Part shown: in pieces, positions 46 through 10,641 of the stretch | How positions within the stretch are numbered: position 1 is the first letter of the stretch | Layout: each line of letters starts with the position of its first letter | NCBI GenBank assembly: GCA_029932675.1 | Contig: JAOZPP010000021.1 | Location: 1 to 41,012 of the forward strand | DNA from: a bacterium | GTDB lineage: Bacteria; SM23-81; DAOVCL01 | Direction: 5' to 3' | Length of the DNA: 41,012 nt | Made by a program: the position numbers and the translations under genes | Notes under the pieces: model-generated | What the model was told of the DNA's origin: nothing | Seen by the model: the letters and a program-made list of their open reading frames with translations, nothing else | Database searches by the model: none

Positions 46-816
46 ATGTGGGTTATAAATAAAAACTGGAAGAGAAATCCCATATGGAGAGTACATTCGG
101 ACAAAATTTCACAAAAAGTTTATGAATTTTTGCATGACCGAGGACTTGCCGAGGTAGATAAAGAGAGTTGGGATTGGATTCTAATGGAAGAGAAAACGAG
201 TTTACTTTATATGTCTTTACTTGCTAAATATCTGGCAGATGTAAATCCTGATTTTACCGTGCCAGGAACAGATAGAAATGAATACGAAAAGATGATTTAT
301 AGAGCTTCTTCACATCACAATAGCTTTGTTTCCCTTGACACAAAATTTATGAATGTTTTACCAATACCTCGTCAAGATATTCCTATTAGCAATATTCTAA
401 GGTTTAAGAGAAAGAGAAGGGATGAACTTTTACACTTTAGAGAAGTAATAGATAACGTCTATCGCGATATTTCAACCGCTGAAGATCAGAATGAAATAAA
501 ACAAATTGTTATAAGTCATAAAGAACGGATTGAAAGAGAAATTAAAGAGCTTAAAAGGATGATGAAAGAAGAGAATATCAAAATCGTATTTGGCTCTCTC
601 AAATCATTGTTAGATATTAAATCTCCTACATTCCTTACAGCCTTAGGAACTTCTATCGCGCAAATACCAATTCAAGTTCAAATTCCTATTTTGGGAATAA
701 CTGCTGCAATTCAGATCGGTTGTTATTTAGTAGATAAAAGAAATCTACAAAGAGCTAGACTAAGGAAATCTCCATTTGCTTATTTGTATCATGCAGAAAC
801 GGAAAGGGTGATATAA
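46..816 (+). CDS. DUF6236-like protein, N-terminus probably lost or frameshifted
   Basis: This is a 256-residue soluble protein rich in charged residues. It has a helical central region (about residues 120-175, many K/E/R) and a hydrophobic glycine/alanine stretch near residues 200-230 that could be one or two membrane-like helices. The pattern 'YMSLLAKYLA...' followed by a 'LPIPRQDIPISNILRFKRKRRDELLHFRE' type region, which I cite only by its ends (residues about 106-133), resembles the DUF6236 family of phage/defence-associated proteins; this is recollection, not a search. Family members normally have about 60-80 further residues upstream. A different frame just before the start (positions 2-58) reads as plausible protein before stopping, so a frameshift or truncation at the 5' end is likely. 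It is the first cassette gene in the window, followed by attC at 832-919. Confidence 0.5.
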   Translation: MWVINKNWKRNPIWRVHSDKISQKVYEFLHDRGLAEVDKESWDWILMEEKTSLLYMSLLAKYLADVNPDFTVPGTDRNEYEKMIYRASSHHNSFVSLDTKFMNVLPIPRQDIPISNILRFKRKRRDELLHFREVIDNVYRDISTAEDQNEIKQIVISHKERIEREIKELKRMMKEENIKIVFGSLKSLLDIKSPTFLTALGTSIAQIPIQVQIPILGITAAIQIGCYLVDKRNLQRARLRKSPFAYLYHAETERVI

Positions 817-831
817 AAATGGCAACGGCAG

Positions 832-919
832 ATAAAACAGCGGACATACGGCTACGCTTTGCTCCAACCCAATTGGCTCACTTTGTTCGCCAACTTCGTA
901 TGTCTGCAAACCGTTATAC
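832..919 (+). other. attC site 1 (degenerate)
   Basis: The left arm ATAAAAC-AGCGGACATACG (832-850) pairs with the right arm CGTATGTCTGC...GTTATAC (897-919). The inner stem CGGACATACG / CGTATGTCTG is 9 of 10 paired. Both outer heptamers deviate from consensus: GTTATAC has T at an R position and ATAAAAC is poor. The inner stem is nearly the same sequence as that of the site at 4539-4629, which supports common descent. Confidence 0.75.
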
Positions 920-961
920 GCCATATTACTTTAAAAAGAATAATCAAGTAAGGAGGCACAT

Positions 962-1873
962 ATGGGATACGTTATATTAATCGTAATCCTACAGGCCATC
1001 ATATGTGCGGCTCTCGCCTCAAATCTAGCTGAGAAGAAGGGATATTCATCAGGAGCATGGGGTGTCTGCGGATTCTTTTTCGGCATTCTTGGTTTGATTG
1101 CTGCTGCTGGCCTTCCGTCAAGAGGAGATTTATACCAGCGTGGCACTATATTGGTCAAGATATGTCCCACGTGCGCTGAACCAATCAAAATTGAAGCGCA
1201 GGTCTGTAAATATTGTGGCCAAAAGTTTAGTAAGGAAGAAATTATCTCGGAATTGGGGATTGCTATAGAAAAGAACGCAAATTCTCGCTTGCAAGCAGTC
1301 AAAATTCTTGCAAAACTGCAAGACGAGATTGCAATCCCATACTTGGAAAAGGCTCTATCTTATGAATCAGATTATGAAACTCGGAGTAAAGCGACAAAAG
1401 CGTTGTTAGATATTGGTACTATCGCAGCATTGATCGGCGTTCTGAAAAAGGGAGAATATGTACACCAGGAAGAGGCGGTTAAGATACTTAAGGAGAGAGC
1501 TGATCCATCCAGTATTCCTGGGTTACTCAGCATCATAGAGGGAGATTTTTCTACAAAAGCAGAGGCCGCTGAGATTATAGGCTTTATAGGAGATCGATCT
1601 ACCACCCCAGCATTGATCAATCTTTTAGAGAAGGGTGATTATGATGCCAAACGGGCAGCGATTTCCGCGTTAGCTAGGATTCAAGATGAATCTACAATTC
1701 CTGCATTGATTAGTGCATTGGCAGACAGAAATATGAGAGATAAAGCAACCGCAGCTTTAATCAAAATAGGGAATCCATCAATACCATATTTAGAAGAAGC
1801 TATAAAACGGGAGGGGAAGTCAATCAGAAAAGTTATAGACAGAATCATTACCGAGATTAAGCGCAAGACCTGA
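962..1873 (+). CDS. Membrane-anchored zinc-ribbon / HEAT-repeat protein
   Basis: This 303-residue protein has a strong AAGGAGG-type ribosome binding site just before the ATG. Residues 1-20 and 33-50 are hydrophobic and look like two membrane segments. Residues 68-85 form a zinc ribbon of four cysteines (C68, C71, C82, C85: CPTC...CKYC). From about residue 95 to the end there are tandem helical repeats of roughly 30 residues with the pattern 'IPxLxxALxD...xxxRxxAxxAL', typical of HEAT/PBS-lyase repeats. Such proteins are usually protein-interaction scaffolds; no enzymatic motif is visible. It forms its own cassette, with attC at 1945-2035 about 70 bp downstream. Its function in the cell cannot be deduced from sequence. 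Confidence 0.85.
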   Translation: MGYVILIVILQAIICAALASNLAEKKGYSSGAWGVCGFFFGILGLIAAAGLPSRGDLYQRGTILVKICPTCAEPIKIEAQVCKYCGQKFSKEEIISELGIAIEKNANSRLQAVKILAKLQDEIAIPYLEKALSYESDYETRSKATKALLDIGTIAALIGVLKKGEYVHQEEAVKILKERADPSSIPGLLSIIEGDFSTKAEAAEIIGFIGDRSTTPALINLLEKGDYDAKRAAISALARIQDESTIPALISALADRNMRDKATAALIKIGNPSIPYLEEAIKREGKSIRKVIDRIITEIKRKT

Positions 1874-1944
1874 ATAGAACCAATGACAAGGTGAGATTTC
1901 CAAGTGATTTGGCAATTGAGATTTATCGAATGCAGTAATACGGC

Positions 1945-2035
1945 GTATAACAAAGCGTATCTGGCTTCGGTGCTTTGCACCTTTGCCTAAATCCAGCCTT
2001 ACGGCTAGACTTCAGATACGCTCGGAACGTTAGGC
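1945..2035 (+). other. attC site 2
   Basis: R'' is GTATAAC (1945-1951) and R' is a perfect GTTAGGC (2029-2035). The inner stem GCGTATCTG (1955-1963) is perfectly complementary to CAGATACGC (2013-2021). The right arm has extra unpaired bases between stem and R', as expected for the extrahelical bases that orient attC recombination. The inner stem is shared with the site at 5155-5238. Confidence 0.9.
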
Positions 2036-2068
2036 GAAGCGGCAAAAATGGAAGAACGGTGCAGATGA

Positions 2069-2346
2069 ATGAAATGGTTTAAAGACATCCACAATCGGCA
2101 AATTCGATTAACAGATGAAAGGCAAGAGCACATTGAAACGGACCATCCAGAAATGTTCCGGGTATAATTGTCAGATCAAAAACAGACCCTGATGTTGAGC
2201 TATTTTATCGATATTACGACACCACGCCTGTTACTGAGAAGTATTTATGTGTTGTAGTTAAAGTATTAGCTGAGGAAGTGTTTATTATAACTGCATATTT
2301 CACAGATACGGTAAAGAAAGGAGAGACGTTATGGAAAGGGAAATAA
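2069..2346 (+). pseudogene. Broken nuclease-like (PBECR/RelE-like) gene, putative partner of DUF2283
   Basis: The reading frame from ATG 2069 gives 32 residues (starting MKWFKDIHNRQIRLTDERQ) and hits a stop at 2165-2167. A second frame from about 2161 to the stop at 2344-2346 continues as IIVRSKTDPDVELFYRYY... and ends overlapping the DUF2283 start. Together they resemble a family of about 100-residue proteins that sits upstream of DUF2283 genes and is often labelled a phage Barnase-EndoU-ColicinE5/RelE-like nuclease. I recognise this from memory. About ten residues seem missing at the junction, so a small deletion plus frameshift is the likely lesion. If the pair is a toxin-antitoxin module, the toxin half is dead here. 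Confidence 0.6.
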
Positions 2347-2543
2347 AAATTTGGTATGATAAAGAAGGGGATTATCTTGAGGTTCTTTTTGAGCGGAAAA
2401 AAGGATACTTCAGGGAAACAGAAAACGATGCGGTGATGGAAAAGGTAGATGAGGAGGGAAATATCATTGGTTTTTCCGTTCTAAAAGTGAGTGCATTGAA
2501 GGGGAAGCCCCTTTCAATAGCTCTCAAGAACCACGTCGCCTAA
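2331..2543 (+). CDS. DUF2283 domain protein, putative antitoxin
   Basis: This 70-residue protein has the typical DUF2283 layout: an N-terminal 'IWYDKEGDYLEVLF' strand pair, a central '...VMEKVDEEGNIIGFSVL' segment, and a short C-terminal helix. Full family length is about 60-75 residues, so it looks intact. The start ATG at 2331 lies inside the end of the upstream broken gene (overlap of 16 bp) and has an AAAGGAGAG ribosome binding site, indicating co-expression. Its stop codon TAA lies inside the attC heptamer GCCTAAC at 2538-2544. A partly deleted duplicate of this gene's 3' end is present at 6471-6574. The antitoxin role is inferred from the neighbour only. Confidence 0.8.
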   Translation: MEREIKIWYDKEGDYLEVLFERKKGYFRETENDAVMEKVDEEGNIIGFSVLKVSALKGKPLSIALKNHVA

Positions 2544-2629
2544 CAGAGCATATCTGGCTCCGTTATGTTCTGCCAAATTCCCCTTCGGTATTTTACTTAA
2601 CGGGACTCAGGCTTCGCTCGAAATTAGGC
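2538..2629 (+). other. attC site 3 (R' core mutated)
   Basis: R'' is a perfect GCCTAAC (2538-2544), which supplies the stop codon of DUF2283. The right end reads ATTAGGC (2623-2629), so the G of the GTT cleavage triplet has changed to A. Inner pairing is weak compared with the other sites, although the left arm (GCATATCTGGCTCCG) clearly belongs to the same stem family as sites 2 and 6. Probably recombination-defective. Confidence 0.7.
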
Positions 2630-2650
2630 GAAATGCTGAGAGGAAAATAA

Positions 2651-3436
2651 ATGGGGGTTAATTGGATAGATACATCAAAGTTGTCTTTCAATAGTTTACT
2701 ACTTCTTGAACGTATCCAGATTAGTTGGTTCCCAGGGTGGCTTCCTGAAAAAGAGCTTTCAATTGCTTTAAAGGCTAATCCAGTAGTTAAATGGTTTCTA
2801 AGAAACAAATGCCCTGAGATTAGAGATTGGCTGGATAAAGTTCTCTCAATAAAAACTGGGGAATATGGTAAAGAAGATATACGTAAAGCAGAACAAATAA
2901 TTTTGAATTCAATTAATGACCTCTTAACGTATGTGATAAGCCCCTCAATATATGATGCGCAACCTTTTCTTCAATGGGATTCATCTGAATTAACAACAAT
3001 AGTTGACTTCACTGCTAAAATTGTCATAGATGTTGGTGCTGGGACAGGGAAGTTGACATTTATTGCTGCTGAAAAGGCGAAGGCAGTCTTTGCAGTAGAA
3101 CCAATTGGTAATTTGCGCTTTTATTTAAAGGAAAAGATGAAGAAATTGGGGCTAAACAATGTTTTTCCTGTTGATGGATTGATCACCGACATTCCTTTTC
3201 CAGATAAGTTCGCAGATATTTGTATGGAGGGCCATACATTCGGTGATAGCATAGAGGTAGAGCATAGAGAGATGGAGAGAGTTACTAAAATAGGAGGTAT
3301 GGTGATACATTGTCCTGGGAATGATGATGTAGATAATGAAATACACCGGTTTTTGATTGCAAAAGGATACAGTTGGTCCAAATTTGAAGAGCCTGGAGAT
3401 GGAGTGAAAAGAAAATATTGGAAATCCATTGTATGA
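2651..3436 (+). CDS. Class I SAM-dependent methyltransferase
   Basis: This is a 261-residue protein. The SAM-binding motif I is VIDVGAGTGK at about residues 125-134, followed by an acidic 'AVEPIGNLRFYL' strand (about 150) and a 'VIHCPGND' strand near residue 220, so the C-terminal half is a Rossmann-type methyltransferase domain. Residues 1-115 are an extra helical N-terminal region without motifs that I recognise; it may give substrate specificity. The ATG at 2651 follows GAGAGGAAAATAA, an acceptable ribosome binding site. It is a single-gene cassette between attC sites 3 and 4. The substrate (small molecule, RNA or protein) cannot be told. Confidence 0.82.
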   Translation: MGVNWIDTSKLSFNSLLLLERIQISWFPGWLPEKELSIALKANPVVKWFLRNKCPEIRDWLDKVLSIKTGEYGKEDIRKAEQIILNSINDLLTYVISPSIYDAQPFLQWDSSELTTIVDFTAKIVIDVGAGTGKLTFIAAEKAKAVFAVEPIGNLRFYLKEKMKKLGLNNVFPVDGLITDIPFPDKFADICMEGHTFGDSIEVEHREMERVTKIGGMVIHCPGNDDVDNEIHRFLIAKGYSWSKFEEPGDGVKRKYWKSIV

Positions 3437-3460
3437 TGAGCTATAGTAGAGAAGCACTTC

Positions 3461-3540
3461 GCCTAACAGCGGATAAAAGGGAGATCAAAGATTCCCCAAA
3501 ATAGCCTTCGGCAACTTCTTCTATCCTCAAAACGTTAGGC
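3461..3540 (+). other. attC site 4
   Basis: It has a perfect R'' GCCTAAC (3461-3467) and a perfect R' GTTAGGC (3534-3540). The inner stem GGATA (3471-3475) pairs with TATCC. At 80 bp it is a typical small attC. Flanking bases CTTC before and GAAA after extend the outer pairing. Confidence 0.92.
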
Positions 3541-3568
3541 GAAAGGACATTAAAAAGGAGGTGATTAA

Positions 3569-4354
3569 ATGGGAGAAATAGAAATGGAAGAGGTAGATAC
3601 TGAAAATGTGGAAGATTTGGTAAATCTGTGCATACCACCTGAGAAGAAAGAGGATAAGCTTTTTATCGAGGGTGCAGAGGTTAAGAAGAGGTGGACTGAT
3701 CAGGTAATAAAGAGATATGGAAGTTGTGCCCTGTTGGCTTACCTAAATGAGAAGCCAGTAGGCATGATCCAATTTCTGCCCAGACCAGATGAAAAGTTGA
3801 TAGAGATTACATGTATTTTTGTCCCTGAGAAGGAAAATTTGAGAAAAGGCATAGGTAAAATGCTGTTAAATGCCCTGATAGAAGAGGCAAAAGAGTCAAA
3901 TCCTTATTTTGACAATGATTCAGCATTTGCTCTTATTACATGGGCATTTCAGGTTCCAGGAAGGTACCCTCAACATGAGTTTTACAAGAAAATGGGATTC
4001 AGACAGGTTAGTGAAGATGAGCCATCTTTACTTTATTATCCACTAAAACAGGGTTATGTCTACGCCCCGAAAAGTGAGAAATATATTCCTCAGGAAGAAG
4101 ATAAAGGAAAGGCACTAATATTCTACGACCCTTCCTGTCCTTTTTGTATATACTTTTCTGAGAAAATCAAAGAATCACTAAAGGAAGTTGCACCAAATAT
4201 TAATATTAGAATGGTCAACCAATTTGAAGAGGTGGAAGAGGTTAAAAAACGAGGGAAAATATCCTTCTGCATAGTGAATCAAAAACCGATAGCATCGTTC
4301 TTCCTGGATAAAGGAAATTTCCAGAAAGAAGTGATGGAGGCGCTTAAAAGATGA
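3569..4354 (+). CDS. GNAT acetyltransferase fused to YoaP-like thioredoxin-fold domain
   Basis: This is a 261-residue, two-part protein. Residues about 1-150 are a GNAT N-acetyltransferase: the acetyl-CoA site is ENLRKGIGKMLLNALIEEA at about 90-108 and a 'HEFYKKMGFRQV' motif follows near 138-149. Residues about 165-261 resemble the YoaP-like domain, with a redox-type CPFC motif at about residues 190-193 in a thioredoxin-like context ('ALIFYDPSCPFCIYFSEKI'). The same fusion is known in the YoaP/GNAT family. The start ATG at 3569 has a very good AAAAAGGAGGTGA ribosome binding site. The stop overlaps the ATG of the truncated HIT gene (ATGA at 4351-4354), implying translational coupling. The acetylated substrate is unknown. 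Confidence 0.82.
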   Translation: MGEIEMEEVDTENVEDLVNLCIPPEKKEDKLFIEGAEVKKRWTDQVIKRYGSCALLAYLNEKPVGMIQFLPRPDEKLIEITCIFVPEKENLRKGIGKMLLNALIEEAKESNPYFDNDSAFALITWAFQVPGRYPQHEFYKKMGFRQVSEDEPSLLYYPLKQGYVYAPKSEKYIPQEEDKGKALIFYDPSCPFCIYFSEKIKESLKEVAPNINIRMVNQFEEVEEVKKRGKISFCIVNQKPIASFFLDKGNFQKEVMEALKR

Positions 4355-4488
4355 AGAAAAGAGATTGTGTCTTCTGCTATTTTACAGAGAAAGATGTTGT
4401 AATTCATGAATATAAGTTGTGTTATTCGATTATTAGTAAGAGTCCCATCAACAAATACCATGTGCTAATCATTCCAAAAGAACATTGA
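4351..4488 (+). pseudogene. Truncated HIT-family hydrolase
   Basis: These 45 residues start MKKRDCVFCYFTEKDVV and end ...HVLIIPKEH before a TGA. This is the N-terminal part of a HIT (histidine triad) protein: the CVFC zinc-type pair and the 'KYHVLIIPKEH' strand precede where the HxHxHxx catalytic triad should be. The triad itself is absent, and the remaining 50 bp before the attC contain no continuation in any frame. The gene is therefore a 3'-truncated remnant, coupled by a 4-bp overlap to the GNAT/YoaP-like gene. Confidence 0.72.
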
Positions 4489-4538
4489 TGCAATATATGC
4501 AAAAGAGATAAGGAACTGTCTAAGATGAATGCCCCTTC

Positions 4539-4629
4539 GCCTAACAGCGGACATACGGCTACGGTGTTTCGCACCCTCGCCCAAATCCCGACTAAAGTCG
4601 GGACTTCGTATGTCCGCAAATCGATAGGC
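4539..4629 (+). other. attC site 5
   Basis: R'' is a perfect GCCTAAC (4539-4545) and R' is GATAGGC (4623-4629). The inner stem CGGACATACG (4548-4557) is exactly complementary to CGTATGTCCG (4607-4616). The loop has its own small hairpin, CCCGACT-AA-AGTCGGG. The stem sequence is close to that of site 1. Confidence 0.88.
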
Positions 4630-4665
4630 TAAATTTTTAAATAATAAGTAACAGGAGGTAATTAC

Positions 4666-5145
4666 ATGAAGAAACGCAAAGCAAAACAAGGCGAAAAGAT
4701 ATACCTGATTAAGGCAACACTGACCGATTGGTATGGCCATGTTGAGCGGATGCCTTATAGAATTTTAGCAATTCCAGAAGGATTTACACTCTACAACTTA
4801 GCAGAAGCCATCGTGGATAGTTTCGACTTTTATTTCGACCATGCTTTCGGGTTTTATAACAACATAAAAAGATGGAGAGAGTCAACGGAAGGCTATGAAT
4901 TGTTTGCTGATATGGGAGAGAAGAGTAAATTTAAGGGTGTAAAAAGAACCAAGATAAACAAAGTTTTCGATAAAATCAAAAAGAAGATGTTGTTTCTCTT
5001 TGATTATGGCGATGAGTGGCATTTTATCGTTGAACTCAAAGGAATAGAATCACCTAAAGAGAATGCGAAGTATCCATTAGTTGTGGAGTCTGTTAGAAAA
5101 TCTCCTCCACAATATGGGGAAATGGATGAAGAGGATGAATCCTAG
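4666..5145 (+). CDS. Plasmid pRiA4b ORF-3-like family protein
   Basis: This 159-residue protein matches the general pattern of the pRiA4b ORF3-like family (PF07929): an early 'YLIKATL' strand, 'RILAIPEGFTLYNLAEAI' (about residues 31-48), a 'FYFDHAFGF' motif and 'FDYGDEWHFIVEL' (about 107-119). The family is common on plasmids, integrons and other mobile DNA, and its biochemical function is not established. Length is normal for single-domain members. The start ATG at 4666 follows AACAGGAGGTAATTAC, a strong ribosome binding site. It is a one-gene cassette between sites 5 and 6. The acidic C-terminus (DEEDES) is typical of the family. Confidence 0.82.
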   Translation: MKKRKAKQGEKIYLIKATLTDWYGHVERMPYRILAIPEGFTLYNLAEAIVDSFDFYFDHAFGFYNNIKRWRESTEGYELFADMGEKSKFKGVKRTKINKVFDKIKKKMLFLFDYGDEWHFIVELKGIESPKENAKYPLVVESVRKSPPQYGEMDEEDES

Positions 5146-5154
5146 AAAAACTTC

Positions 5155-5238
5155 GCCTAACAAGCGGGTATCTGGCTTCGGCATTCCACCCAAGTCCAGC
5201 CTGACAGCTGAATTTCAGATACGCTGGGAACGATAGGC
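5155..5238 (+). other. attC site 6
   Basis: R'' is a perfect GCCTAAC (5155-5161) and R' is GATAGGC (5232-5238). In the inner stem, GCGGGTATCTG (5164-5174) pairs with CAGATACGC (5216-5224) with two bulged G residues. The stem family matches site 2. Confidence 0.88.
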
Positions 5239-5332
5239 AAAATGTCGCTGCTACGCCACGAAGCCGAGGTGTGACCGGACTTAGGAGCTTATATAGGCCG
5301 CCGGCTCATAGGGGAGCGAACATGGAAGGCAG

Positions 5333-5839
5333 ATGAAAGGGACACTGAAGGTTATAAATGGATTAAAAAAGAAGGGATTAATTATAGATTATGCAATAGG
5401 TGGAGGAATTGCTGCGTTGTTTTATATCGAGCCTTTTCTTACCTATGACTTAGATGTGTTCATTATTCCCACCAAGGGGATAAACCAAAAGGGTCTGATT
5501 TTACTTTCTGATGTGTTTGATTACCTTCGGTCAAAAGGATGCTCCTGGAAGGGAGAGCATATCATCATAGAAGGGATACCAGTTCAGTTTATCCCCGTAG
5601 ATGAACTTGAAAAGGAAGCGGTGGAATGCGCAAGAGAGATAGAATATGAAGGTGTGAGGACAAAGGTGGTCACTCCTGAACATCTGATAGTTATACTCTT
5701 AAGAGCAGGCAGAAGAAAAGATATAGAGAAGGTGGAAAGGCTCTTGGAACAGACAGAGATCGACCGAAACCTATTGAACAAGATTTTGAAGAGATTTAAC
5801 CTGGAAGAAAAGTTTAATGTTTTACACAAAGGAGAGTAG
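5333..5839 (+). CDS. Nucleotidyltransferase-fold protein (MNT/AbiEii-like)
   Basis: This 168-residue protein shows the signature of DNA polymerase beta-like nucleotidyltransferases: AIGGGIAALF at about residues 21-30 followed by T37 and the catalytic-type acidic pair D39/D41 in 'TYDLDVFI'. A third acidic or strand element is plausible around residues 80-90 ('IPVQFIPVDELE'), and a C-terminal helical part 'LLRAGRRKDIEKVERLL' follows. Such stand-alone nucleotidyltransferases occur in toxin-antitoxin and abortive-infection pairs. Here the next gene (66 aa) begins 3 bp after the stop, fitting a two-gene module. The ATG at 5333 is preceded by GGAAGGCAG, a weak ribosome binding site. A toxin, antitoxin or repair role is not decided by sequence. 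Confidence 0.7.
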   Translation: MKGTLKVINGLKKKGLIIDYAIGGGIAALFYIEPFLTYDLDVFIIPTKGINQKGLILLSDVFDYLRSKGCSWKGEHIIIEGIPVQFIPVDELEKEAVECAREIEYEGVRTKVVTPEHLIVILLRAGRRKDIEKVERLLEQTEIDRNLLNKILKRFNLEEKFNVLHKGE

Positions 5840-5842
5840 ATT

Positions 5843-6043
5843 GTGAGAGACTATAAGGAAATGAAAATTTCTACGGGCAAGAATAAGATAATTACCAGGC
5901 GAAAACTATTTGAAAGTAAAGCAGACTTCCATAAGGAGCAAGCACGCTTACCCTTTGGGGAAAAGATAAAGATACTTGTTAGGCTACAAAAGATGGCAAG
6001 TGCAATTAAAAAAGGAAAAACAATCTGGAAGGTTGAAGAATGA
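5843..6043 (+). CDS. Small basic protein, partner of the nucleotidyltransferase
   Basis: This is a 66-residue, lysine/arginine-rich protein starting at GTG 5843, directly behind the nucleotidyltransferase gene, with an AAAGGAGAG ribosome binding site ending in that gene's stop. It reads '...EQARLPFGEKIKILVRLQKMASAIKKGKTIWKVEE'. I recognise this pattern only as a recurrent small companion of nucleotidyltransferase-fold genes, not as a named family. It overlaps the following broken gene by 4 bp (ATGA at 6040-6043). A module role (antitoxin or regulator) is inference from the tight coupling. Confidence 0.55.
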   Translation: MRDYKEMKISTGKNKIITRRKLFESKADFHKEQARLPFGEKIKILVRLQKMASAIKKGKTIWKVEE

Positions 6044-6290
6044 ACATAGAAAAGTATCTTGTTCTGAACCAATATCTGTTTTCCCTTTTTGGAGTGGATG
6101 ACTTCAGGGATTTGCAAGAGAAACTGAAAGATGCACCAGTTGGAACAAACAGCGATGGGAGAACTTATTTTTGAATGTCCTGGGGTCAGCGGCTTTCGCA
6201 TCGGGGGCATAATTTCACATGGATTTTTCCAGCACTATCTTTGACCTTAGGCTTTACAAATATGAAGGCTCTTCTGAAAGAAAAGAATGA
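6040..6290 (+). pseudogene. Unrecognised gene remnant
   Basis: An ATG at 6040 overlaps the stop of the preceding 66-aa gene (ATGA). It opens 44 residues (MNIEKYLVLNQYLFSLFGVDD...NSDGRTYF), then stops at 6172-6174. Protein-like sequence resumes in another frame around 6220-6287 (MDFSSTIFDLRLYKYEGSSE). This looks like the start of a much longer protein that has lost most of its length and its frame. I cannot name the family. The arrangement suggests that the nucleotidyltransferase module once had a third, larger gene. Confidence 0.45.
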
Positions 6291-6317
6291 AATGCCTAAA
6301 GAACCTTTGCCAACTTC

Positions 6318-6350
6318 GCCTATCTGGCGGGTAAGTGGCTCCGCTTCGCA
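6318..6350 (+). other. Possible attC left half-site
   Basis: CTTCGCCTATC followed by TGGCGGGTAAGTGGCTCCG resembles the left arms of attC sites 2, 3 and 6 (CTTCGCCTAAC...GGTATCTGGCTTCGG), but the heptamer has T for A and no matching right arm follows. The 120 bp to 6470 hold no gene that I can support. Confidence 0.35.
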
Positions 6351-6470
6351 TTGTAGAGTAACTTATTAGAGAACAGGGAATTAGTTCTTTCTACTCCTCA
6401 AGGATGTAGTGTAACCTAATTTTTAACCCATTGCTATTTCAGAAGTTATAACCATAGGTGTCAAACTTGG

Positions 6471-6574
6471 GTTGTAGTTAAAGTATTAGCTGAGGAAGTG
6501 TTTATCATATCTAAAAGTGAGTGCATTGAAGGGGAAGCCGCTTTCAATAGCTCTCAAGAATCACGTCGCCTAAC
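6471..6574 (+). pseudogene. Internally deleted duplicate of the nuclease-like/DUF2283 cassette end
   Basis: Positions 6471-6505 are identical to 2251-2285 (inside the broken nuclease-like gene). Positions 6511-6574 match 2481-2544 (the 3' end of DUF2283 with the attC heptamer) with two mismatches. The 195 bp between these blocks are replaced by 5 bp. This is a second, decayed copy of the same cassette, not a functional gene. Confidence 0.9.
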
Positions 6575-6577
6575 AGC
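6568..6577 (+). other. attC remnant (R'' only)
   Basis: GCCTAAC at 6568-6574 followed by AGC is the start of an attC site. Three bases later (6581) the ATG of the next gene begins. The hairpin and R' are gone, so the cassette boundary was erased by deletion or atypical joining. Confidence 0.75.
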
Positions 6578-6580
6578 AAA

Positions 6581-7153
6581 ATGTGGGAATATGTAATCTG
6601 TGTAGTCATTTGGGTTGTTTTTATCTTCCTGTGGATTATTAAATCAATTCGAGAACGTAAGATTTTCGCAATTTACGCAGAGTGTGGCATAGCAATCTGT
6701 TTAACATTATTAGTTTTAGGGTTGTTTGGTTGGTTCTATATCCCATCAGATATTTTGGTATTGCGAATTTTAGGAGTTATTGGAAACATTATCTACTGGT
6801 CAGGAGCACCTCTTGCTGTTATTTCGCTTATTACTCTTAGATGTAGGGGAAAACCTAAGGATTTGGTTGAGAATACCACTCTTTTAATTGAAAGTGGAAT
6901 ATTTAGAGTAATTCGTCATCCTCTGTATGTAGGACTTGCTTTTTGGAGTATTGGACTCATACTATTAATTCAATCAATTCCTTCAACAATATTAGGAATG
7001 GTAGCCCTCTTTTGTTTCTGGATGGCATCCAAAAAGGAAGATGAGTTTAACATCAAGAAATTTGGAGATAGTTATAAGGAATATATGAAGAACGTTCCCA
7101 TGTGGAATTTTCTTAAAGGATTAAGGAATTTAAAGAAATTACTGGTAGGTTAG
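6581..7153 (+). CDS. Isoprenylcysteine carboxyl methyltransferase-like membrane protein
   Basis: This 190-residue integral membrane protein has hydrophobic segments at about residues 4-20, 33-52, 58-86 and 116-147. The motif RHPLYVG at residues 112-118, followed near residue 152 by the acidic 'KKEDEFNIKKFGDSYKEYM' tail, is the hallmark of the ICMT/phospholipid methyltransferase family, which uses SAM at the membrane. In bacteria these enzymes methylate lipids or unidentified small substrates. The ATG follows only AACAGCAAA because the upstream attC is truncated, so no ribosome binding site is evident and expression may be poor. It is followed 7 bp later by an attC site. Confidence 0.83.
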   Translation: MWEYVICVVIWVVFIFLWIIKSIRERKIFAIYAECGIAICLTLLVLGLFGWFYIPSDILVLRILGVIGNIIYWSGAPLAVISLITLRCRGKPKDLVENTTLLIESGIFRVIRHPLYVGLAFWSIGLILLIQSIPSTILGMVALFCFWMASKKEDEFNIKKFGDSYKEYMKNVPMWNFLKGLRNLKKLLVG

Positions 7154-7160
7154 TAACTTC

Positions 7161-7324
7161 ACTTAACAGCGTGTTTGCGGTTTCGCTTTGCTCCACCAAA
7201 ATTACGTACCAACACACCTTGCGCTTGGCAATGCCTTATTTCCTTTATCATAAAAGTGGTTATGCCTCCAAAAACGACATCGACAAAACGGCACGCAACT
7301 TCGCAAACACGTAAAACGATAGGC
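7161..7324 (+). other. attC site 7 (long)
   Basis: R'' is ACTTAAC (7161-7167), which fits RYYYAAC, and R' is GATAGGC (7318-7324). The inner stem CGTGTTTGCG (7170-7179) is exactly complementary to CGCAAACACG (7302-7311). At 164 bp this is longer than the other sites, with a large unstructured loop. Confidence 0.82.
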
Positions 7325-7352
7325 AAAACGGCAGAAACTAATACGATATCTC

Positions 7353-7532
7353 TTTCTTGAAGTAGATGATGTTGATGTAGAATACCAAAAACTGCTGGAT
7401 AAAGGTGTAAGATTTAATACCGCCCCAAAGGATGAGCACTGGGGAGGATGTACCGCAAGTCTCACCGACCCAGATGGTAACAAAGTTGTCCTTGTGCAAT
7501 ACAAAATAAGTAAAGAGGGTGTCTTTAGGTGA
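7353..7532 (+). pseudogene. C-terminal fragment of a VOC/glyoxalase-family protein
   Basis: Sixty codons, FLEVDDVDVEYQKLLDKGV to the TGA at 7530-7532, carry the second half of a vicinal-oxygen-chelate domain. 'LTDPDGNKVVLVQY' is the typical final strand with the metal-ligand position. There is no start codon in this frame after the attC at 7324, so the N-terminal half is missing. A fresh cassette would begin with a full gene, so this one has been trimmed. Confidence 0.75.
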
Positions 7533-7556
7533 ATATAGAATGCTTAGTGCTACATC

Positions 7557-7603
7557 GCCTAACAGCGGATAATGGGCGAACTTCGCTTATCCGCCTGTTA
7601 TCG
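7557..7603 (+). other. attC site 8 (short, degenerate, last of array)
   Basis: R'' is a perfect GCCTAAC (7557-7563). The inner stem GCGGATAA (7565-7572) pairs with TTATCCGC (7587-7594), and the right heptamer is GTTATCG (7597-7603). At 47 bp it is shorter than classical attC sites and probably has a loop deletion. No further site was seen to the right. Confidence 0.75.
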
Positions 7604-7747
7604 GGAGTTGAAGTAAGAATTATCAGTAGATCGCAAAAGTTGAGATAACCTCATTATGTAGGATCAAAGAAAAGACTATGAACCCGGATTTTCACAAATT
7701 CACAGCACCTCTCAAATCGCTGAGGCCTCTTGCTGGACTCCGAAAGG

Positions 7748-7814
7748 GCGGACAGACATAAATGTCTGTCCCTACGAAACAAATACACAAATCATTGGCC
7801 TTGAAAAATTTATG
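7748..7814 (+). repeat. 67-bp dispersed repeat with palindrome, copy 1
   Basis: This segment is the exact reverse complement of 32121-32187. It contains a 22-bp near-perfect palindrome (7750-7771: GGACAGACAT, AA, ATGTCTGTCC) followed by a conserved AT-rich 43-bp tail. A GGACTCCG element precedes it here and a related one sits beside the other copy. It resembles a REP-like intergenic element. The gap 7604-8110 otherwise holds only a gene remnant. Confidence 0.85.
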
Positions 7815-8110: not shown

Positions 8111-8647
8111 GTGAACCATCCAATCATAATCTCAGACTATGATCCCCAATGGCCGATCTTATATGAAGAGGAGAAAGCGAGGATTCTTGAGGTAATCGGA
8201 GATAAGGTAGTAAAGATTGAGCACATCGGAAGCACTGCCGTCCCTGGCTTAGGGGCAAAGCCAGTTATTGACATAATGCTTGCCATCCCTCATCTTGCCG
8301 ATGCTGAGAGGTGTATTGAGCCGCTTCGAAGCATTGGTTATGAGTATATCCCTAAATATGAGGCCTCAATTCCGGAGAGACGTTATTTTCGCAAAGGACC
8401 TCCGGAAGCGCATATCCATTTACACGTAGTTGAACCGATGAGCGATTTCTGGGAGCGACATATCTTATTTCGGGATTTCTTGCGCGCTCATCCCGAGATA
8501 GCCCAGGAGTATTACCAATTGAAGAAAGGATTAGCGGCCAAGTATGGCTCAGATCATTGCGCTTACACTGAAGCTAAAGCCCCGTTCATCAAATCTGTGG
8601 TTGCCAAGGCTCGTGCTGCCCAAAGCACCAGCACAGCGATTACATAA
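8111..8647 (+). CDS. GrpB family (UPF0157) nucleotidyltransferase-like protein
   Basis: This 178-residue protein has the GrpB/UPF0157 features: 'SDYDPQWPILYEEE' near the N-terminus (residues 8-21), 'IEHIGSTAVPGLGAKPVIDIML' (about residues 36-57) with the GS and DI residues of the polymerase-beta-like fold, and 'HIHLHVVEP' near residue 100. The family has a nucleotidyltransferase fold; its function is not settled. Length matches the family. Start GTG 8111 is chosen because GAGGAGAAAGG precedes it and the family N-terminus fits. No attC follows it, so it is not part of the cassette array. The 240 bp after it hold only a hairpin. Confidence 0.88.
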   Translation: MNHPIIISDYDPQWPILYEEEKARILEVIGDKVVKIEHIGSTAVPGLGAKPVIDIMLAIPHLADAERCIEPLRSIGYEYIPKYEASIPERRYFRKGPPEAHIHLHVVEPMSDFWERHILFRDFLRAHPEIAQEYYQLKKGLAAKYGSDHCAYTEAKAPFIKSVVAKARAAQSTSTAIT

Positions 8648-8719
8648 CCCTGGCCACCGCCTCCGCTGAGAGAGATAGAGCCACTTTTTTCGAACTTAGC
8701 TCGTTACCCTCGCCGAGTT

Positions 8720-8746
8720 CTCCAGAGGGGATTCGCCCTTCTGGAG
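8720..8746. other. Intergenic hairpin
   Basis: CTCCAGAGGGG (8720-8730) and GCCCTTCTGGAG (8735-8746) form a stem of about 11 bp with a short ATTC loop. No T-run follows on either strand, so it is not a clear intrinsic terminator. The gap between 8648 and 8887 shows no gene. Confidence 0.5.
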
Positions 8747-8887
8747 CTTGGCAATCTTCTACGAGGGGCATCCCCCTTCTAAAGGTTCCCTTCGCTTTTG
8801 GGATTTCTTAGAAATTTCAAAAAGTCCTCTGAGGGGAGTGGGTAGTTGTGCCAGTATCGGTTTGTTCAAAGAGGAAAGGGAGAAAAA

Positions 8888-9256
8888 ATGCCGACAATTT
8901 GCCATTTTGAAATTCCAGCCGATGATATTGAGCAAGTAAGAAAGTTTTACAGTAAGCTTTTTGGTTGGAAGATTGAGAGGGACAAAGGACTAATGGAATA
9001 TTGGAGGATTAATACTACTCCAAATGCTGTGGGGGGCATCAGTGGGGGAGTGGAGAGGAGACAGGACCCGCAACACCGCATTACTATATGGATAGATGTT
9101 CCCTCAGTCGATGAGTTTGCGGCCAAAGTGGAGACACTTGGCGGAAGGGTATTTGTTCCCAAGACGGCTCTCCCAGGTAGGGGATACTATGCCTACTGTC
9201 TGGATCCAGAAGATAACTATTTCGTTATCTGGGAGATGGATAGGAATGCAAAGTAA
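8888..9256 (+). CDS. VOC (glyoxalase/bleomycin-resistance) family protein
   Basis: This 122-residue protein starts 'MPTICHFEIPADDIEQVRKFYSKLFGWKIER', the usual VOC opening with metal-ligand H6 and the 'FY..LFGW' motif. It ends with 'YCLDPEDNYFVIWEMD', the matching second half with the acidic ligand in 'WEMD'. VOC proteins bind a divalent metal and act as lyases, dioxygenases or resistance proteins; the specific reaction is not readable. Start ATG 8888 is preferred over an upstream alternative because the family begins here and AGGAAAGGGAG is a good ribosome binding site. It has no attC and is separate from the VOC fragment at 7353-7532. Confidence 0.88.
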   Translation: MPTICHFEIPADDIEQVRKFYSKLFGWKIERDKGLMEYWRINTTPNAVGGISGGVERRQDPQHRITIWIDVPSVDEFAAKVETLGGRVFVPKTALPGRGYYAYCLDPEDNYFVIWEMDRNAK

Positions 9257-9347
9257 AGTTATGGGCAAGGTGTGAAACCCGACGATTGCCCTGCAGCCTT
9301 ACCCAATTAGTTTGTTATTCCTGAGCGGAGCAAGGGAAGGGAGAGAT

Positions 9348-9878
9348 ATGGGTAAAGTGGAGTCCAATCTTGGCTTCAGGCTTATGGCTTTAACTTATAA
9401 GTTTCGCGATTTCCTCCGCCCGCGCCATCACATCTTGCAGGAGTTAGGACTAAAACCAGGGGATCATGTGCTCGATTATGGTTGTGGCCCTGGGAGTTAC
9501 ATACTTCCCCTTGCAGAGTTGGTTGGCAAGGAGGGGAGAGTCTATGCCTTGGATCTCCACCCGCTCGCCATTCAAAGGGTCAGAGAGATCTCTGCAAGGA
9601 AACAGTTGCCCAATGTGCGACCAGTACTTTCCAATTGCAAAACAGGGTTGCCTGATGAGGGCATAGATGCCGTACTATTATATGATGTTCTCCATGATTT
9701 GGATAACCCAGACGAGGTATTAGAGGAGTTGCATCGGGTGTTGAAACCCAGGGGAATCTTATCCGTGAGTGATCATCATATGAAAGGGGAAGCAATAGAG
9801 GCTAAGGTGACAAAAAGGGGATTGTTTAGCCTATCGAAGAAAGGGGAGAGGACATATAATTTCTTGAAGATGGTATAG
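9348..9878 (+). CDS. Class I SAM-dependent methyltransferase
   Basis: This 176-residue protein has motif I 'VLDYGCGPGSYILPLAEL' (about residues 41-58), motif II 'RVYALDLHPLAI' and the 'DAVLLYDVLHDLDNPDEVLEELHRVLKPRGIL' region, whose parts at about residues 110-142 are typical of small-molecule or ubiquinone-type methyltransferases. Start ATG 9348 is chosen for its GGAAGGGAGAG ribosome binding site; an upstream in-frame start would add 12 residues of no family character. It stands alone, about 90 bp after the VOC gene. The substrate is unknown. The 214-bp gap that follows contains nothing that I can support. Confidence 0.85.
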   Translation: MGKVESNLGFRLMALTYKFRDFLRPRHHILQELGLKPGDHVLDYGCGPGSYILPLAELVGKEGRVYALDLHPLAIQRVREISARKQLPNVRPVLSNCKTGLPDEGIDAVLLYDVLHDLDNPDEVLEELHRVLKPRGILSVSDHHMKGEAIEAKVTKRGLFSLSKKGERTYNFLKMV

Positions 9879-10092
9879 TTATGAGGCATTTAGGTAACTA
9901 ATCCTTCATAGCCCACTTTGGGCGAGATCAGTTAGATTCTCATAGGGAGAAGAGATATTGGTGAGTAGGCCGTGGGGGGATGCTGTTTCACCTACCATAG
10001 TAACTATGGCTTACTTTGAGTGTCCAAATTTCAGCTATACCAAAGCTTTTTAATAAGTTCCCAGCCATAAGCGGAATTTTCAGGGGAGAGGG

Positions 10093-10641
10093 ATGAAGAT
10101 TAAGATTGCCAATCTAACTGAGAGGAATTTAGGGGATACTCCGGAGTGGGAGACTTACCCATTTAGTTGTAAGTTTTGCCTCTGGTGGGAATTCCCAGAG
10201 GAATGTATGGACCCAAGCAAGGAGAAGAAGGAAGAAATATTACAGAAAAAATTGAAATGGATCCAAGGTACAAATAAATTATTCGGTAACTGTGGGAAGA
10301 TACTTTACTTAGATGGGAAGGCTGTTGGCTATTCCCAGTACGCACCACCCGAATTCTTGCCCCATTCAGCCGATTACCAAGCGGGGCCACCGAGTAAAGA
10401 CGCTGTTCTCATTTCCTGTCTGTTCATTCCACCCATAGAATTTAGAGGGTTAGGATTGGGAACCCAACTTCTTCAAAGTATAATTGATGATCTGAGAGAC
10501 AGAGGGATACAAGCGATTGAAACTTTTGCCCGAAGAGGGAATCCCAACAATCCATCCGGGCCAGTGGAATTTTGTCTGCGCAATGGGTTTAGAGTTTACA
10601 AAAATGATTCAGAGTTTCCCCTTATGAGGTTAGAATTGTGA
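10093..10641 (+). CDS. GNAT-family N-acetyltransferase
   Basis: This 182-residue protein has a cysteine/tryptophan-rich N-terminal part ('CKFCLWWEFPEEC', about residues 26-38) and a C-terminal GNAT core. The core carries the acetyl-CoA loop 'EFRGLGLGTQLLQSIIDDL' at about residues 116-134 and the closing 'VEFCLRNGFRVYK'. The C-x2-C...C arrangement near the N-terminus is unusual for GNATs and might bind metal; a similar architecture occurs in uncharacterised GNATs of clostridia and archaea. ATG 10093 has a CAGGGGAGAGG ribosome binding site. The gene ends 39 bp before radA, but the functions look unrelated. Confidence 0.82.
   Translation: MKIKIANLTERNLGDTPEWETYPFSCKFCLWWEFPEECMDPSKEKKEEILQKKLKWIQGTNKLFGNCGKILYLDGKAVGYSQYAPPEFLPHSADYQAGPPSKDAVLISCLFIPPIEFRGLGLGTQLLQSIIDDLRDRGIQAIETFARRGNPNNPSGPVEFCLRNGFRVYKNDSEFPLMRLEL

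Follow-up and report, generated by a model that had tools for sequence, protein, structure and literature searches.

A probably decayed and dispersed integron cassette system in a bacterium of the FCB group

Eight attC sites, most of them preceded by a small accessory gene, lie between positions 832 and 7603 of the stretch of DNA analysed here (the window), which is the whole of contig C83 with a length of 41,012 bp. The array is best read, with good though not full confidence, as part of a decayed, dispersed integron cassette system in a candidate phylum of the FCB group. This system comprises clusters of attC sites lacking an integron integrase (CALINs, defined by two or more attC sites with spacings below 4 kb, as seen in the eight sites), and its integrase has apparently been lost.

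The source genome comprises 3.03 Mb in 116 contigs and is 97% complete. The LpxC/FabZ fusion, a conserved protein of the window, has its closest named relatives in MAGs that carry the labels Zixiibacteriota (66% identity), KSB1 (63%), and Calditrichota. This places the host in the FCB group, most likely in one of its candidate phyla, in agreement with the original prediction. The comparison set contained 59 other genomes, with G001 as the sole genome of the same genus and G002 and G003 as members of the same phylum.

attC sites and cassette genes of the window

All eight paired-box sites proposed for the window were recovered on the + strand, at or a few bases from the predicted positions. The boxes, described as GCCTAAC/GTTAGGC or close variants, indeed form pairs, but their letters had to be corrected for the sites at 832, 1945, 2538, 4539, 5155, 7161, and 7557. 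Two models are used below: R1, a covariance model built from the eight window sites and run on unseen sequence, and a class 1 model trained on 12 attC sites of class 1 cassettes. The features of the region are as follows.

46..816, +, DUF6236 cassette gene (Pfam DUF6236, E 3e-22)
832-919, +, attC site 1; left box degraded (ATAAAAC), right box R' GTTATAC; recovered by R1
962..1873, +, cassette gene for zinc ribbon and HEAT repeats
1945-2035, +, attC site 2; left box GTATAAC; DNA fold z -4.8; class 1 model match with identical bounds, E 1.5
2070..2330, +, disrupted small ORF with in-frame stops and without Pfam match, likely a pseudogene
2331..2543, +, DUF2283 cassette gene
2538-2629, +, attC site 3; right box R' ATTAGGC; fold z about -2.1
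2651..3436, +, class I SAM methyltransferase cassette gene
3461-3540, +, attC site 4; fold z about -2.1; class 1 model match with identical bounds, E 3.3
3569..4354, +, cassette gene for GNAT acetyltransferase and thioredoxin-like domain
4351..4488, +, truncated HIT-domain gene (pseudogene; HIT E 2e-4, stop after 45 aa)
4539-4629, +, attC site 5; right box GATAGGC (GAT core); DNA fold z -7.0; R1 91 bits
4666..5145, +, pRiA4b ORF-3-like cassette gene
5155-5238, +, attC site 6; right box GATAGGC (GAT core); fold not significant; R1 match
5231..5325, +, genus-specific repeat element of ~100 bp behind the GAT box of attC site 6; inverted ends GATAGGCTAAATGTCGC...GCGACATTTAGCCTATC in the full form
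5333..5839, +, nucleotidyltransferase (DUF2204) cassette gene, with a 66-aa ORF behind
6044..6173, +, remnant (5' part) of a type III restriction enzyme gene; matches the N terminus of the intact C31 gene with 36/44 identities
6500..6576, +, second copy of the DUF2283 cassette's 3' end; 92% identical to 2470-2546, ending just past the attC left box
6581..7153, +, cassette gene for a PEMT/ICMT-type membrane methyltransferase
7161-7324, +, attC site 7, long; right box GATAGGC (GAT core); fold not significant; R1 match
7332..7532, +, glyoxalase/VOC gene fragment consisting of the 3' half (Pfam Glyoxalase, only profile positions 71-120 of 121)
7557-7603, +, attC site 8, short and the last of the array; right box GTTATCG; DNA fold z -5.6
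8111..10641, +, GrpB-like, VOC, methyltransferase, and GNAT genes between the array and radA, with no covariance model match and without attC

The sites have outer boxes of the RYYYAAC/GTTRRRY type and a conserved paired stem, and their pairing was scored over a structure of 18 pairs, made up of the two boxes and a stem of 11 bp. Across the eight sites, 84.6% of 143 cells are standard pairs compared to 70.9% after shuffling, and the covariation score over the 18 pairs is 0.446 compared to 0.193; none of 500 shuffles reached the observed pairing or the observed covariation score. Ten pairs vary on both sides, and displacing the partner by 1-3 columns lowers the pairing to 18-42%. A plain box-plus-stem rule finds five sites in the first 8 kb (null mean 0.76, null maximum 6 of 300) and is weak proof by itself, so that the reality of the sites rests on covariation and on independent matches elsewhere. 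A search pattern for the left box only was overly strict, and an Rfam scan of the window gave no match. Bottom-strand folding, suggested for each site, turned out strong at 1945, 4539, and 7557, moderate at 2538 and 3461, and not significant at 832, 5155, and 7161. By the measures of box sequence, stem, and covariation, the eight are real attC sites.

The cargo is of a kind typical of cassettes, including GNAT, methyltransferases, nucleotidyltransferase/HEPN, VOC, and, on contig C31, restriction-modification. In the other loci examined, the cassette proteins of the window were not found beside attC, with the exception of weak matches for VOC and methyltransferase in G001, a genome which also differs in the region upstream of radA. 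The fragments of HIT, VOC, and type III restriction genes, the cut DUF2283 duplicate, and the degraded first left box fit an array that is no longer turning over. Outside the array, at 7735-7791, the window carries a short repeat with the palindrome GGACAGACATAAATGTCTGTCC, which is present on many contigs of G001.

Related sites in the source genome and beyond

Beyond the eight sites it was built from, R1 found 14 further matches in the same genome (best E 3e-14; on C112, C31, C100, C59, C50, and others), the weakest few of which may be chance, and a widened covariance model gave 21 matches at E < 1e-3. The original prediction was to be abandoned if such repeats occurred throughout the genome away from cassette genes; nearly all of the other sites lie in small clusters beside accessory genes. 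Among the 59 other genomes, R1 detected sites in ten (best E 9e-20), while 49 had no site at E <= 1e-4 and thereby double as a specificity control. G057, a genome from another phylum, contains 21 sites over several contigs, with no IntI at the threshold used, and some of its sites are nearly identical to those of the window, for example AGCGTATCTGGCTTCGGTG and GCGGATAAAAGGGAAATC.

On C100, the genes for V-ATPase subunits B and D are separated by four attC-like sites together with several accessory genes. The gap between both genes amounts to 3.9 kb, compared to about 104 and 76 bp in G002 and G003, as measured from the last aligned residue of B to the start of D. Off-target insertion, loss of intI, and rearrangement have been proposed as origins of CALINs (PMC8618304). 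Off-target insertion by IntI is thus one proposed route by which the C100 cluster could have arisen, and homologous exchange or rearrangement would be able to produce it as well.

Two loci carry larger operons next to attC sites. Directly behind an attC site on C31 (locus L038, 523-8232) lies an operon for type III restriction-modification that includes an ImmA/IrrE-like gene. On C59 (locus L041, 991-4411), a single attC site is followed by three genes, two of them for BrxD-like ATPases, beside a MoxR/BatA-type operon; the three genes are possibly a defence operon carried with attC.

The ~100-bp element behind site 6 recurs on C112 (10250-10365 and 9380-9467), C100 (5800-5898), C93 (38381-38473), C96, and C59, and in G001 on C205 (1536-1640). 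It adjoins attC-like sites in every place whose context was read and is absent from the 58 other genomes searched; it is perhaps a gene-less mini-cassette or a MITE. An Rfam search of the C112 repeat region returned one sub-threshold match, which was taken as chance.

Integrase fragments and attI-like sequences

As predicted, searches of the window revealed no integrase, and the cassette array continues past the left end of contig C83. Profile searches of the whole genome with PF00589 and TIGR02249 gave nothing above the integron integrase cut-off; the matches are Xer-like recombinases, one other recombinase, and fragments. As the array extends beyond the contig, the absence of an integrase for this array is not proven. 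Among the recombinases, those on C44 and C12 are XerC/XerD-like, and the 376-aa recombinase on C94 is not IntI. The truncated recombinase on C22 was considered and rejected as the integrase of the array, being without an IntI-type C-terminal end and one of several non-IntI recombinases. This fragment (locus L005, 375-672) contains an in-frame TGA and lies beside queH; it is followed by a perfect 10-bp hairpin, GTTATAC, and a gene at the contig edge, and may be a relic of another cassette platform.

True IntI remnants were found in the sister genome G001, which harbors three C-terminal fragments (on C1, C75, and C201). The longest of them reaches 209 bits with TIGR02249 and, across the IntI-specific segment, resembles Vibrio IntI 2A3V from the PDB at E 3e-41. 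All intI copies of G001 are fragments, so that the genus yielded no intact IntI; the 5' part is cut at differing points in C1 and C75, while contig C201 starts inside intI. Behind the fragments follows a conserved stretch, at most about 180 bp long, that ends near GTTA and, in C75 and C201, is oriented in the same way as the cassettes after it. We read this stretch as attI. Two relatives of it occur without intI in the source genome, one at C94:31755-31925 (76% identity), behind which lie a cassette and, as judged by eye, a site resembling attC, and a second at C85:3651-3701. These gene-less attI-like stretches are the best sign that intI was lost, which does not amount to proof for C83.

The integrase-less attC cluster that had been named as the alternative to a chromosomal integron fits these results: no IntI was found genome-wide, but true fragments occur in G001. 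According to the preferred reading, each unit consists of one small accessory gene and an attC site folding as a single-stranded hairpin. A past IntI tyrosine recombinase of the lineage, acting on the folded bottom strand of attC, would have caught cassettes at attI and put some of them elsewhere in the chromosome. Subsequent loss of the integrase in the source genome would have left behind attI-like scars without intI, CALINs, and decayed cassettes and boxes. We infer both the past IntI activity on the window sites and its loss. Since the integrase appears to be lost, the array is most likely immobile at present, unless IntI from another source acts on it.

The main alternative is a complete chromosomal integron, whose functional intI and attI would be located just left of position 1 in an assembly gap. 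The array does reach the contig start, the arrays on C112 and C31 likewise extend to contig ends, and similar attC sites are known to hamper assembly (PMC9024848). Moreover, an intact intI may exist in the genus, as C201 of G001 begins within the gene. In contrast, no IntI was found in 3.03 Mb at 97% completeness, where the top TIGR02249 matches are XerC/XerD-like; neither was attI found in the window, intI is missing at the two attI-like places on C94 and C85, and several cassettes are broken. We consider a complete integron unlikely.

Site type and relation to known integrons

The window sites deviate from the best-studied type of attC, as the class 1 model reaches only E > 1 on the 41-kb window and R1 has no match on class 1 plasmids; two of the best five class 1 matches nevertheless fall exactly on 1945-2035 and 3461-3540. 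The central spacer of the window sites is lopsided, with about 1-2 nt on the left and 5-6 nt on the right, compared to about 5 and 5-6 nt in class 1 sites, whose spacer sides are of similar length and whose L stem carries an extrahelical base. In addition, GAT replaces GTT in the right-hand box of 6 of 19 sites from the source genome and 0 of 22 elsewhere (Fisher p 0.006, for a comparison chosen after seeing the data). GAT core, lopsided spacer, and weak class 1 match may be the hallmarks of a site subfamily, or may reflect no more than decay and divergence. A more far-reaching version, which we regard as unlikely, holds that the sites form a distinct attC subfamily with lopsided spacer and tolerated GAT core, recombined by a matching IntI lineage of the FCB group and other uncultured phyla, with cassettes spread widely into chromosomal loci including essential operons.

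Other palindromic repeats do occur in the genome, among them the ~100-bp element tied to some sites and the short repeat near 7735-7791, but it is highly improbable that the sites themselves are dispersed REP- or MITE-like palindromes or terminators that happen to follow genes, given their asymmetric attC layout with RYYYAAC and GTTRRRY boxes, variable middle, single orientation, covariation, and cargo type, the true IntI fragments and attI-like sequence in the genus, and the same site types in unrelated genomes.

The favored reading as a decayed cassette system shares with described CALINs the close spacing of attC sites, one gene per cassette, no intI found, and several clusters per genome, the last also known from Xanthomonas (PMC12444791) and archaeal MAGs (PMC9668308). 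It differs by the FCB-group candidate-phylum host, the cluster within the V-ATPase operon, the lopsided spacer, and the frequent GAT core. With the sedentary chromosomal integrons of the Vibrio type it has in common chromosomal attC-flanked cassettes and a genus IntI whose nearest solved structure is that of Vibrio IntI. Unlike these, the source genome has no intI that could be found and few sites per cluster, and the intI fragments on C75 and C201 of G001 point along the cassettes, not away from them. As far as the attG-type insertion of Loot et al (2024) is described in PMC12444791, the C100 cluster resembles it in having cassettes outside attI, here between V-ATPase genes; it differs in that the insert contains several cassettes, its insertion point was not placed at G/TT, and no integrase accompanies it.

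Orphan arrays without integrase are a known kind, but the lineage seems to be new as their host, and the traces of how the array came to lack an integrase are clear, if incomplete. A 2021 review of phyla with integrons lists only Bacteroidota and Gemmatimonadota of the FCB group and no FCB candidate phylum (PMC8618304), so that the present array widens the host range of integrons. The near-identical site types across unrelated uncultured genomes hint at a common cassette pool. Within the genus pair, two of the routes proposed for orphan arrays can be seen together: in one the integrase is lost and attI scars remain, in the other cassettes insert outside the integron.
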